NCBI GenBank assembly: GCA_023380935.1
Contig: JAMCST010000002.1
Location: 13,189 to 55,339, forward strand
Reading direction: 5' to 3'
Origin: Patescibacteria group bacterium
Lineage (GTDB): Bacteria; Patescibacteriota; Microgenomatia; UBA1406; GWC2-37-13
DNA: 42,151 nt
Positions within the stretch are counted from its first letter, which is position 1. Each line of letters opens with the position of its first letter. Under the pieces are notes generated by a model, which saw only the letters and a program-made list of their open reading frames with translations, made no database searches and was not told the origin of the DNA. Made by a program: the position numbers and the translations under genes. Positions 3,791 to 28,461 of this stretch are shown piece by piece.

Positions 3791-3865
3791 CCAAACTTTA
3801 GACCAGGCTCAATTATCCCTTAGTGGAATTAAATTTATATTGTTCTTATACTCTAAATCGACACT

Positions 3866-3928: not shown

Positions 3929-4966
3929 ATGGGACATATGAAGAAATATATATGTCCCAGGTGTAAGATAACTGCTTTCGTCATCCGTCAAAGAAAAAGA
4001 GGAAAAAGCATTACCTACTTGTGTAAGACGTGTTGTAGATATTTTTCAGTCAATGTCCATTTCCCTGATGATGTTTCTATCCTTGTTGATCATTTATCCG
4101 GCTTGTCCTACAGAAAGCTGGCGGAAAAGTATCGCATCACCAAGTCGACAGCCTGTCGTATTGTTTTGAATGCGCTGGGGAGACTTCCCAACAACAATGA
4201 GTTTACGAAACAATACTGTAGCCGCTTCTCCCAAGTGCTTCTTGTTGACGGAAAATATATCCATGTGAAAGGTTACGATCAAAAGATACCACTTCTTTGG
4301 GGGATCGATTACTTTACTCACGATATTCCCGTATTTACCCTGGCTCCTTCCGAAAATTACCAATCATGGGCGAGATTTTTCTCCTTGTATCGAATCCTTA
4401 ATTACCTTCCTCAGCTTCTGGTGTGTGATGATAACGCTTCCCTTAAAATGGCTGCCCGGTATGCATTTCCAAAAATCAGGATTCAAACCTGTTGGAATCA
4501 TTTCAAAGAAACAATAAGGAAAGAGTTAAATGTTAGATCTGATCCAACCTACAGATATGTTTCCCGTGCCGTTGACAACATCCTTTTAACCAGACAGCCT
4601 ACAGAAACATTCAATAGACGTTTTGGTAACTTTTTTACCAAATATGGGAGCGATCCTGTTGCACGAGAGGTGCTGACCAATATCGAACGAAACAAAGAAG
4701 AACTTTTAGCTTACAAATGGATTAGGAGAGCACCATTCACCAACAACCTTATGGAGTGTTTCAATTCTCACCTTGAAGCCCGACTTACTCCTTTAAAAGG
4801 ATTCAATTCCTACGCTGATGCCAGACTTTGGTTAAATGGATATGTCCTAAAAAGAAGGTTTACAGCTTTCACTTCCTGTTCCGGTAAATTCAGGCATTTA
4901 AACAGAAAAAGATCAATTGACATAACGAAGAAAAAAGGGATTGATTTGCCAATCCTTTTTGGTTAA
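3929..4966 (+). CDS. DDE transposase with N-terminal zinc ribbon
   Basis: A 345-residue transposase. The N-terminus holds a four-Cys zinc ribbon (CPRC at 9-12 and CKTCC near 32-36). A helix-turn-helix follows (GLSYRKLAEKYRITKSTACR). The RNase H-like core shows candidate catalytic residues in LLVDGKYIHV (first Asp), LLVCDDNASL (second Asp) and NNLMECFNSHLE (Glu), the MULE/IS256-like order, with the conserved C/W-x-x-H (CWNHFK) between the second Asp and the Glu. A second ATG at 3938 is equally possible as start. The frame is intact and both inverted repeats are present, so the element may be active. Confidence 0.8.
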   Translation: MGHMKKYICPRCKITAFVIRQRKRGKSITYLCKTCCRYFSVNVHFPDDVSILVDHLSGLSYRKLAEKYRITKSTACRIVLNALGRLPNNNEFTKQYCSRFSQVLLVDGKYIHVKGYDQKIPLLWGIDYFTHDIPVFTLAPSENYQSWARFFSLYRILNYLPQLLVCDDNASLKMAARYAFPKIRIQTCWNHFKETIRKELNVRSDPTYRYVSRAVDNILLTRQPTETFNRRFGNFFTKYGSDPVAREVLTNIERNKEELLAYKWIRRAPFTNNLMECFNSHLEARLTPLKGFNSYADARLWLNGYVLKRRFTAFTSCSGKFRHLNRKRSIDITKKKGIDLPILFG

Positions 4967-25959: not shown

Positions 25960-26676
25960 ATGTCGGGGCATTCTAAATGGGCAAATATCAAGCGAAAAAA
26001 AGAAGTCAACGATAAACTGCGCGGCAGTCTTTTTACCAAGTTGACCCGGATGATCACTCTCGCGGTTTTGGAGGGCAACGGCATGACCGATCCTGATTAC
26101 AACTTCAGGCTCCGGTTGGCGATCGATAAGGCAAAGCAGCTTAACATGCCCAAGGACAACATCGCTCGGGCGATCGAGAAGGGGATAGGACCCAACAAAA
26201 GCCAGCTCAAGGAGTTGTTTTACGAAGGTTTTGCGCCCGGCGGAGTAGCGTTGATCATCCATGCCACCACCGACAATCATAACCGGACCATGTCCGAGAT
26301 CAGAAACGTGATGGAGAAGGGGGGCGGAAAGTTGGGGGACCAGGGTGCGGTGGCCTACCTTTTCCAAAAATGCGGCGTGGTGATGGTAGACAAACAGGCC
26401 AACTCCCAGGAAGCGGTTTTGGCCTTTGCCGACCGCATCGGTGCCTTTGACATCGAGGAGGATGACGAGAGCTTTATCGTTTACTTTCCGTTTGAACGGT
26501 TGGGTAAGATCAGGGATCAGTTCCAGGGACTGACCGCCCCGGCGGCCGAATTGTGTTTTCGCCCTACCACCAGCGTGACCGTTGCCGACCCGGCGTTGTT
26601 TGACCGGGTTACGAGATTGGCAGAGAGCCTCGAAAGCCTTGACGATGTTCACGGTGTTTATACCAACCTGTCATGA
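25960..26676 (+). CDS. yebC: YebC/PmpR family protein
   Basis: 238 residues, the usual length. It opens with MSGHSKWANIKRKKEVNDKL, the hallmark of the family, and continues with FRLRLAIDKAKQLNMPKDNI, EGFAPGGVALIIHATTDN and KGGGKLGDQGAVAYLF. YebC-type proteins have been described as transcription regulators and more recently as factors relieving ribosome stalling. ATG 25960 gives the canonical N-terminus and lies 7 nt after TATAAT. The next gene overlaps its stop by 4 bp. Confidence 0.95.
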   Translation: MSGHSKWANIKRKKEVNDKLRGSLFTKLTRMITLAVLEGNGMTDPDYNFRLRLAIDKAKQLNMPKDNIARAIEKGIGPNKSQLKELFYEGFAPGGVALIIHATTDNHNRTMSEIRNVMEKGGGKLGDQGAVAYLFQKCGVVMVDKQANSQEAVLAFADRIGAFDIEEDDESFIVYFPFERLGKIRDQFQGLTAPAAELCFRPTTSVTVADPALFDRVTRLAESLESLDDVHGVYTNLS

Positions 26677-27482
26677 AATCGATTCACAAACAACTCCAGA
26701 AGCCGTTCCTGAAGATCGAGAAGCGTATCCGGTTTGTCATCAGCGCGGCGCTGCTTTCGGCGGTAATATTGATCTCGACCTTTTTCTTTTTTGACCAGTC
26801 CTGGTTTTTCGTCAGCCTGCTGGTGGTGCTTGTCTACGCCCTGACTTATTTTTCCCTGATCGAGGGAGTGCGTCGGATAGAGTGGCTCACCCTGTTTATT
26901 TTACCGATTCTTTTCAGCGTCACCGCCTATTTCTTTTACTTCCTTTTTCCGGTGCGCTGGCTTACCCGTCTGCCGTTTGTCATCATCTACGCCGTTTCCG
27001 TTTACGCCCTGTTGCTTACCAGCAACATCTTTAACGTCGGCGTCAAGACCAATCTCCAGCTTTACCGCGCCGCGTTTTCCGTCAACTACTTTTTTCAGAC
27101 TTTTATCTGCTTTCTGGCCTTTAATATCCTGTTTTCCCTTAAGCAGGGGTTTGTGGTCAACGCCGGTTTTGCTTTTGGGTTGATAACGATTCTGGCCATC
27201 CATCTGTTGTGGACCGTGAAACTGGAGCTGACGCTGGAAAGGACGATTGTCCGTTACGCCCTGGTGCTGGGGTTGATCGTGGCCGAAATTACCCTGGTGC
27301 TGTCGTTTGTGCCCTGGAAAAACACCATGGTGTTGGCCTTGTTTCTTTCTTCGTGTTACTACAGTCTGGTGGGGTTGGTGTACCGTTACTATGACCAGAG
27401 ATTTTTTAAGGATTCAATCCGCGAATATTTGCTGGTATTGGGTTTTGTGGGAATAATTGCGTTGCTTTCGGTCGGCTGGTAA
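26673..27482 (+). CDS. Multi-pass membrane protein of unknown function
   Basis: 269 residues with about seven or eight hydrophobic helices, a basic amphipathic N-terminus (KSIHKQLQKPFLKIEKRIR) and short connecting loops. Charged residues inside the membrane part include FSLIEGVRRIEW and KLELTLERTIVRY. No transporter or enzyme motif is recognised. It overlaps yebC by ATGA, so the two are co-transcribed. The gene-free region begins right after its stop. Confidence 0.65.
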   Translation: MKSIHKQLQKPFLKIEKRIRFVISAALLSAVILISTFFFFDQSWFFVSLLVVLVYALTYFSLIEGVRRIEWLTLFILPILFSVTAYFFYFLFPVRWLTRLPFVIIYAVSVYALLLTSNIFNVGVKTNLQLYRAAFSVNYFFQTFICFLAFNILFSLKQGFVVNAGFAFGLITILAIHLLWTVKLELTLERTIVRYALVLGLIVAEITLVLSFVPWKNTMVLALFLSSCYYSLVGLVYRYYDQRFFKDSIREYLLVLGFVGIIALLSVGW

Positions 27483-27677
27483 AAAAATGGCGAGACACAA
27501 AGGCGGGGAGAGGGGAGGATTATATATAATGCTCCGGATGACGGACGTGAGTTATTTATCCTATAATATATTTTCGCACTATAGGATATAAATATCACGT
27601 ACGTATATTTTGCGTTTATCAGAAACAACAAATGACTCAGACTCAATACCCGCCGGAGTATAACTCCTGGTCATATC

Positions 27678-27990
27678 AGCCTCAAAATATTATATTTAGC
27701 TTGTTGTCATCCCCTAAAGTCTAGGATATCCCTTTGTGGATAACTAGATAATCCAGCCTCGTTTTTTTGTTTTGGATTGCTATAGTACGCTAAATTATAA
27801 TGAAACCTGACCGGATTGTGGAGGGAAATCAGCCTCAAAACTCAACGTTTAGATTACTATAATACTCTAAACTACATATAAATCCTGGTTCATTGTTAGA
27901 ATAAAGAACAGATCTAGCCTCAAAATTAGTAATTCGTAGTGCCATTACGCTCTAAATTATTACACTGCGTTAACCGGTGAAGAGAGTGCC
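27678..27990 (+). repeat. Degenerate tandem repeat array, four units
   Basis: AGCCTC recurs at 27678, 27755, 27831 and 27916 (spacings 77, 76, 85). In every unit a CTAAA follows at offset 36 or 37. Between them lies a block like TTTAGATTACTATAATAC (27847-27864 in unit 3), matched as GGATTGCTATAGTACG in unit 2 and more weakly in units 1 and 4. AAAA follows AGCCTC in units 1, 3 and 4. The fixed register over divergent sequence shows common descent by tandem duplication. Function unknown. Confidence 0.7.
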
Positions 27991-28090
27991 GGGAGAGAGG
28001 CCGGCCATTGGTAAAAAAGAGCAAAAAATCATGAATATTATCTGAACCAACCCACGATTAATGGTGGAACGGGGGTGACGGACTGATTCT

Positions 28091-28209
28091 TATATTCTCC
28101 GAAAAGGCAGGGGTCTCGGAAAACCGGGAAAACGGCGCGATTCCGTGACAGAGAGGAGAATATGGACAACGTCGTAAATTGTATCTTTTACGACGTTGTG
28201 AGTAGACCC
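28091..28209 (+). ncRNA. Candidate structured RNA with possible pseudoknot
   Basis: Visible pairings: ATATTCTCC (28092-28100) with GGAGAATAT (28155-28163); inside it CGGAA (28117-28121) with TTCCG (28141-28145); a separate perfect 13-bp hairpin ACAACGTCGTAAA (28166-28178) with its complement at 28187-28199, loop TTGTATCT; and GGGTCT (28111-28116) with AGACCC (28204-28209), which crosses the first stem and would form a pseudoknot. Both strands would fold similarly, so the strand is a guess. It matches neither tmRNA, RNase P, SRP nor 6S RNA as far as I can see. Confidence 0.35.
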
Positions 28210-28445
28210 AGCCAGGGGAGAACGGGTTTTTGCGACAATCCGATAACCTTAATAATTAAATAAATAACTTTTTATTAACTAATTAGTAACTCTAATCTAA
28301 TCGGCCCCATACCCCAGTGGCGGTTGCCTCGATTATTACGGTGTTTTTTGCTTCCCCCATTGGGTTTTATCTTGTTGCGATGCCCTTTAGTCTCCTCTAC
28401 TCTGATTTTGGCCGATTTATTGATGATGGGCGAGGCCGGGACGTG

Positions 28446-28454
28446 TGTTACAAT
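28446..28454 (+). promoter_or_regulatory. Extended -10 of the ABC transporter operon
   Basis: TGTTACAAT (TG one base before TACAAT at 28449-28454) ends 7 nt before the ATG at 28462. The same GTGTTACAAT decamer lies before the DsbA-like gene on the minus strand. Confidence 0.5.
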
Positions 28455-28461
28455 CAAACGT

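Follow-up and report, generated by a model that had tools for sequence, protein, structure and literature searches.

A probable dif locus with an upstream array of palindromic units in a lineage of Microgenomates

In surveyed bacteria, the chromosomal recombination site dif lies within about 1-3% of the genome from the GC-skew shift point (PMC3025954). Archaeal dif sites are off-centre, at 122-144 degrees, and the plasmid site cer carries about 180 bp of accessory DNA bound by ArgR and PepA (PMC5357621). How chromosomes segregate in the Candidate Phyla Radiation (CPR) has hardly been described. An odd GC-skew profile was noted in a closed Microgenomates genome of another lineage (PMC7143001), and when we searched the open-licence literature we came across no work on Xer/dif in CPR or Patescibacteria, and neither a dif described for this group nor an array of the present kind next to a dif. 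Here we describe a locus which, we are fairly confident, is the dif of one Microgenomates lineage together with an accessory array. The dif/Xer system is already known; what is new here is a variant of that system, not another kind of repeat. The locus lies in a 42,151-nucleotide stretch of contig JAMCST010000002.1, called the window below, and positions are those of the window unless a genome is named.

A reading of the sequence alone had listed four units beginning with AGCCTC in a gene-free region, at 27678, 27755, 27831 and 27916. All four starts are there, with CTAAA 35-36 bases on, and no convincing gene is present in the region. The pattern AGCCTC-N29..31-CTAAA has four matches in this 980-bp intergenic region; in dinucleotide-preserving shuffles of the same region the maximum was one match per shuffle, and only 1 of 5,000 shuffles gave any. 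The units are 77, 76 and 85 bases apart, and spacing in relatives peaks sharply at 76-79, so the earlier figure of "near 77" holds. The sequence-only reading had also said that the array should be dropped if relatives lacked the unit and shuffled sequence did as well; relatives have it, and shuffled sequence does not do as well. All four units are on the plus strand. Unit 1, an AGCCTC module with a palindrome, spans 27678..27718 (palindrome centre 27707), unit 2 spans 27755..27794 (centre 27783), unit 3, the top match to the palindrome profile, spans 27831..27871 (centre 27860), and unit 4 spans 27916..27956 (centre 27945). A CRISPR or a simple tandem repeat was rejected, as Tandem Repeats Finder reports nothing at the array. 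The palindrome has a further match at 3833-3858 (score 19.1), upstream of a transposase-like ORF at 3929-4966, which is probably unrelated. The array coordinates stand as listed, but the conserved locus is larger and also includes a DnaA box (27735-27743), a dif-like core (28169-28196) and flanking boxes. The suggestion of a centromere-like or partition site was right insofar as the array belongs to a chromosome-segregation locus, but it missed the DnaA box and the core about 210 bp downstream of unit 4.

The array is 5′ of this core, and unit 4, the closest unit, is about 210-230 bp from it. The 28-bp core, ACGTCGTAAAT-TGTATC-TTTTACGACGT (28169..28196, plus strand), consists of two inverted 11-bp half-sites around the 6-bp centre TGTATC. 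The centre of E. coli dif is TGTATA. The core lies within a perfect 13-8-13 inverted repeat (28166-28199) that reads ACAACGTCGTAAA-TTGTATCT-TTTACGACGTTGT. A search with the whole intergenic region gave matches in 63 of the family's 72 genomes, almost always at a single place in each, and these rest mostly on a short block, window 28168-28198. When up to three mismatches were allowed, the 28-bp core was found in 65 of the 72 genomes, at a single place in each, and the reversed pattern used as a control was found in none. At the order level the core is present in 73 of 83 genomes, and variant forms occur in some further genomes of the class.

This core is very likely the lineage's dif, because it is single copy and has the 11-6-11 anatomy of dif, because the polarity of a guiding motif reverses there, because FtsK has a gamma domain and because an XerC/D-like recombinase is encoded nearby. 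Strand-biased hexamers were taken from the arms of G069 only, leaving out 440-676 kb; this genome, assembled in one contig of 1.217 Mb, was read over 1.16 Mb, up to its last 57 kb. One motif, RGGGGA, retains its long-arm polarity across that zone and switches at 674.9 kb, 2.9 kb from the core, which is at 677.7 kb. The polarity optimum is 2.6-3.1 kb off the core (lnL deficit 2.1), and the site is just outside the change-point interval. RGGGGA was chosen in G069 partly for flipping there, and other strand-biased hexamers, such as GGTTGG, do not flip. Since the motif had been singled out partly for its behaviour in G069, we tested it in G061, G048 and G014, genomes not used for motif discovery (G014 was read outside 400-700 kb, and dif flanks were read within the family). 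The switch is 132 bp from the core in G061, 115 bp in G048 and 1.7 kb in G014, and the change-point intervals contain the core in these three genomes and in the window. RGGGGA is directed toward the core from both sides; KOPS and SRS likewise point to dif from either side (PMC5357621).

In each of the eight genomes tested, FtsK carries a gamma domain. The XerC/D-like recombinase, about 310-355 aa long, occurs in most relatives, and in the approximately 22 relatives that carry both on one contig its gene is 10-55 kb 3′ of dif. The window's own genome is a metagenome-assembled genome (MAG), about 85% complete, in which we did not find the active Xer and found only the second Xer homologue described below. 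Two genomes have a long XerC/D-like frame of 736-760 aa with a split catalytic domain (G014 C1, about 885.5-887.4 kb, L162; G032 C2, 65556-67364). In G014 the insert comes directly after HVLRH, starts with Cys and ends with HN ahead of Ser, and in this resembles an intein. The core might instead be an attachment or control site of some other system, such as a mobile element or a condensin loader, with the polarity switch as a by-product. Its place away from the GC-skew terminus, its loxP-like arms and its variable 3′ neighbours would suit such a site, but there is one copy per genome, 5′ synteny is common across genera and the motif switch is of FtsK type; we regard this possibility as very unlikely. 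As a dif, the core would be the place where recombination occurs.

The position of the site does not match the usual correlate of dif, the GC-skew shift point, in any of G069, G014, G061 and G048. The cumulative GC skew of G069 has its minimum at dnaA, at about 1039 kb, which places the origin there. A replication origin at the array locus, considered for its DnaA box and AT-richness, was rejected, as G069 has no such minimum at the site. The interval from dif to dnaA measures 361 kb, or 107 degrees, in G069; for G014 the figures are 290 kb and 95 degrees. A wide gap separates dif from the GC-skew terminus, and short-arm forks appear to run past dif. We considered that the array might be a polar fork trap, Tus/Ter- or RTP-like, in which a protein on the same-oriented units stops short-arm forks. 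The units are indeed polar and in one orientation; G069, G014, G061 and G048 have them on the side of dif toward the short arm, and GC skew is weaker once past dif. However, skew at dif in G014, G061 and G048 shows no sign change and is mostly negative beyond, and the G069 peak, at about 520-540 kb, is 140-160 kb from dif (11-13% of the genome), which means that forks commonly pass the array. The other side of dif, moreover, has no oppositely oriented array, only a single palindrome in some loci. A fork trap is therefore unlikely.

To describe the units in relatives, we collected 105 of them from 62 distinct dif loci, and they share one consensus: ATTTAGCCTCAAAA, about 6 bases, and then the 26-bp palindrome ATTTAGA-N12-TCTAAAT. 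Each unit is thus made of a TTTAGCCTC module and an adjacent palindrome. A symmetrised palindrome profile built from the 105 units finds 166 sites in 57 of the 62 loci, versus none in shuffled sequence. The array is not strictly universal, since the profile detected no palindrome in the other 5 loci, where dif is present. Unit spacing has its mode at 76-79 bp, with minor groups at 85-89 and 93-98. Upstream of dif, the closest palindrome centre is in most cases 218-255 bp away, and an extra palindrome occurs about 200-220 bp downstream in some loci. A strict unit pattern occurs at 54 places in 36 of the 72 family genomes, with no match for the reversed control. All of these are at dif, on its 5′ side and in one orientation; the sole exception is in G042 (C43:5938), a genome in which the search at up to three mismatches found no dif. 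The profile of the whole unit matches G069 at dif only, and the palindrome alone reaches moderate scores at a few other places. At the class level, G193, G085 and G228 have a similar palindrome no more than about 250 bp from dif.

Palindromes in a conserved, gene-free region can fold, and the locus might be a non-coding RNA or a cluster of tandem small RNAs with hairpins. Against this, the arms show no covariation, and their observed pairing equals the pairing after shuffling between units; no Rfam family matches, and changes in the dif core are uncompensated as well, such as A to T in G048-G050. We judge an RNA extremely unlikely. Because the arms vary independently, the unit is better read as a duplex site for a symmetric protein than as an RNA or a single-strand hairpin, and the reading of the units as duplex sites bound by protein is well supported. 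The sequence-only reading had offered both a tandem small-RNA cluster and an array of protein sites; the second pointed the right way, and the first fails on covariation and Rfam.

An exact DnaA box, TTATCCACA, is present between units 1 and 2 on the minus strand (27735..27743); TGTGGATAA at 27735 is the sole exact DnaA box of the window. The identical 9-mer occurs once 5′ of dif in 46 of the 62 loci, always in the same orientation and never in the opposite one, against a chance expectation of about 0.35 per strand. It is mostly a short distance ahead of a unit. G069 has two DnaA boxes by dnaA. The array and this box could be a locus of the datA/DARS kind that controls DnaA, or what is left of an iteron-type plasmid origin that lies beside dif by chance. 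The perfect box with its constant orientation and its usual place shortly before a unit would agree with this, and iteron-like repeats by a resolution site do resemble plasmid origins. But each locus has a single box, the GC-skew minimum and hence the origin are at dnaA, and the distance of the units is fixed to dif, not to the DnaA box. This makes either version improbable, and we return to a dif with an accessory array.

The neighbourhood is conserved on one side. A membrane-protein gene of 269 aa with no Pfam family (26673..27482, plus strand) is the 5′ neighbour in 61 of the 62 loci and is not part of the site; yebC follows further out wherever the flank extends far enough. The expectation of a fixed place between yebC and an ABC operon was thus borne out 5′, where yebC and the membrane-protein gene are conserved, but not 3′, where ABC genes, a polysaccharide deacetylase or others follow. 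Gene content differs between relatives in their 3′ flanks and in window 28200-28460, which suggests insertions or exchanges beside dif. The 5′ end of the locus has an imperfect 25-bp inverted repeat (27541..27604), part of which is similar in G047 at an equal offset from dif. Short purine or pyrimidine boxes, namely AAGAGAAG, TTCTC and AGAGRAGTG, are conserved in relatives, both in the stretch from the array to dif and immediately 3′ of dif. Such boxes are at 28095-28099 and 28214-28223 in the window and recall FtsK/SpoIIIE-type motifs. A purine-rich block at 27978..27999 (plus strand) is the putative positional counterpart of the AAGAGAAG box in the array-to-dif stretch of relatives.

Which protein might bind the units? 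Most genomes of the family encode a second Xer homologue, about 288 aa long. Of six genomes checked, five have its end 1-3 kb from dnaA, and in G061 the distance is 29 kb. In all eight copies read (L155, L156, L157, L159, L160, L161, L163 and L164), the catalytic Tyr is replaced by Phe and the His by Asn (NDLRN), and in some the Arg is replaced by Lys. Judged by these residues, the protein looks catalytically dead. Such a dead paralogue could still bind palindromes of about this size, and, usually encoded near dnaA as it is, we take it as the leading candidate for the array protein. The array itself would then be where an accessory protein binds in order to organise or regulate dif. An autoregulated binding protein was considered and rejected, as the genes by the few other palindrome matches (in G069 and at window 3846) include no evident regulator.

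The locus could then work as follows. RGGGGA motifs would steer FtsK along both arms toward dif, where it would activate the XerC/D-like tyrosine recombinase on the 28-bp core, and recombination there would turn dimeric chromosomes into monomers before division. The upstream units, each a 26-bp palindrome with its TTTAGCCTC module, would be bound as duplex by a symmetric protein, and a nucleoprotein complex would thereby form on the array, its distance from dif being fixed. This complex would probably wrap or tether dif, or gate recombination, and DnaA may be a further ligand of the locus. A more speculative idea, to which we give only a modest chance, is that the dead Xer paralogue and DnaA on the phased array couple initiation control to dimer resolution. 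If so, then with dif apart from the replication terminus, the array, not fork convergence, would mark final chromosome separation.

If this reading is correct, a large uncultured group gains a concrete dif and an FtsK-guiding motif, which can be used to orient and check genomes, and it also provides a natural case of a dif far from the GC-skew terminus. With both a phased accessory array and a DnaA box beside a chromosomal dif, the control of dimer resolution becomes directly testable. Of the known sites, loxP of phage P1 has the same 13-8-13 inverted repeat, with 25 of 34 bases identical; unlike loxP, the present site is chromosomal, occurs once per genome and needs no Cre. Plasmid cer (ColE1) and psi (pSC101) combine an Xer core with accessory DNA, and by position and conservation the array is a putative counterpart, but this locus is chromosomal, and its repeated palindromic units are about 220-500 bp from the core at about 77-bp spacing. 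Archaeal dif/XerA shares the 11-6-11 inverted repeat, an apparently single active recombinase, an off-centre position and short skewed motifs that turn at the site. In archaea, the system reportedly works without FtsK, whereas FtsK gamma is present here, and we know of no accessory array there. As in XerCD/dif of E. coli and Bacillus subtilis, there is one 28-bp 11-6-11 core per chromosome, with FtsK gamma, polar guiding motifs that converge on the site and an Xer gene nearby. Unlike in XerCD/dif, arm symmetry is almost perfect, the second Xer homologue appears to be catalytically dead, and the site is about 100 degrees from the origin, off the GC-skew peak and flanked by a conserved array and a DnaA box.
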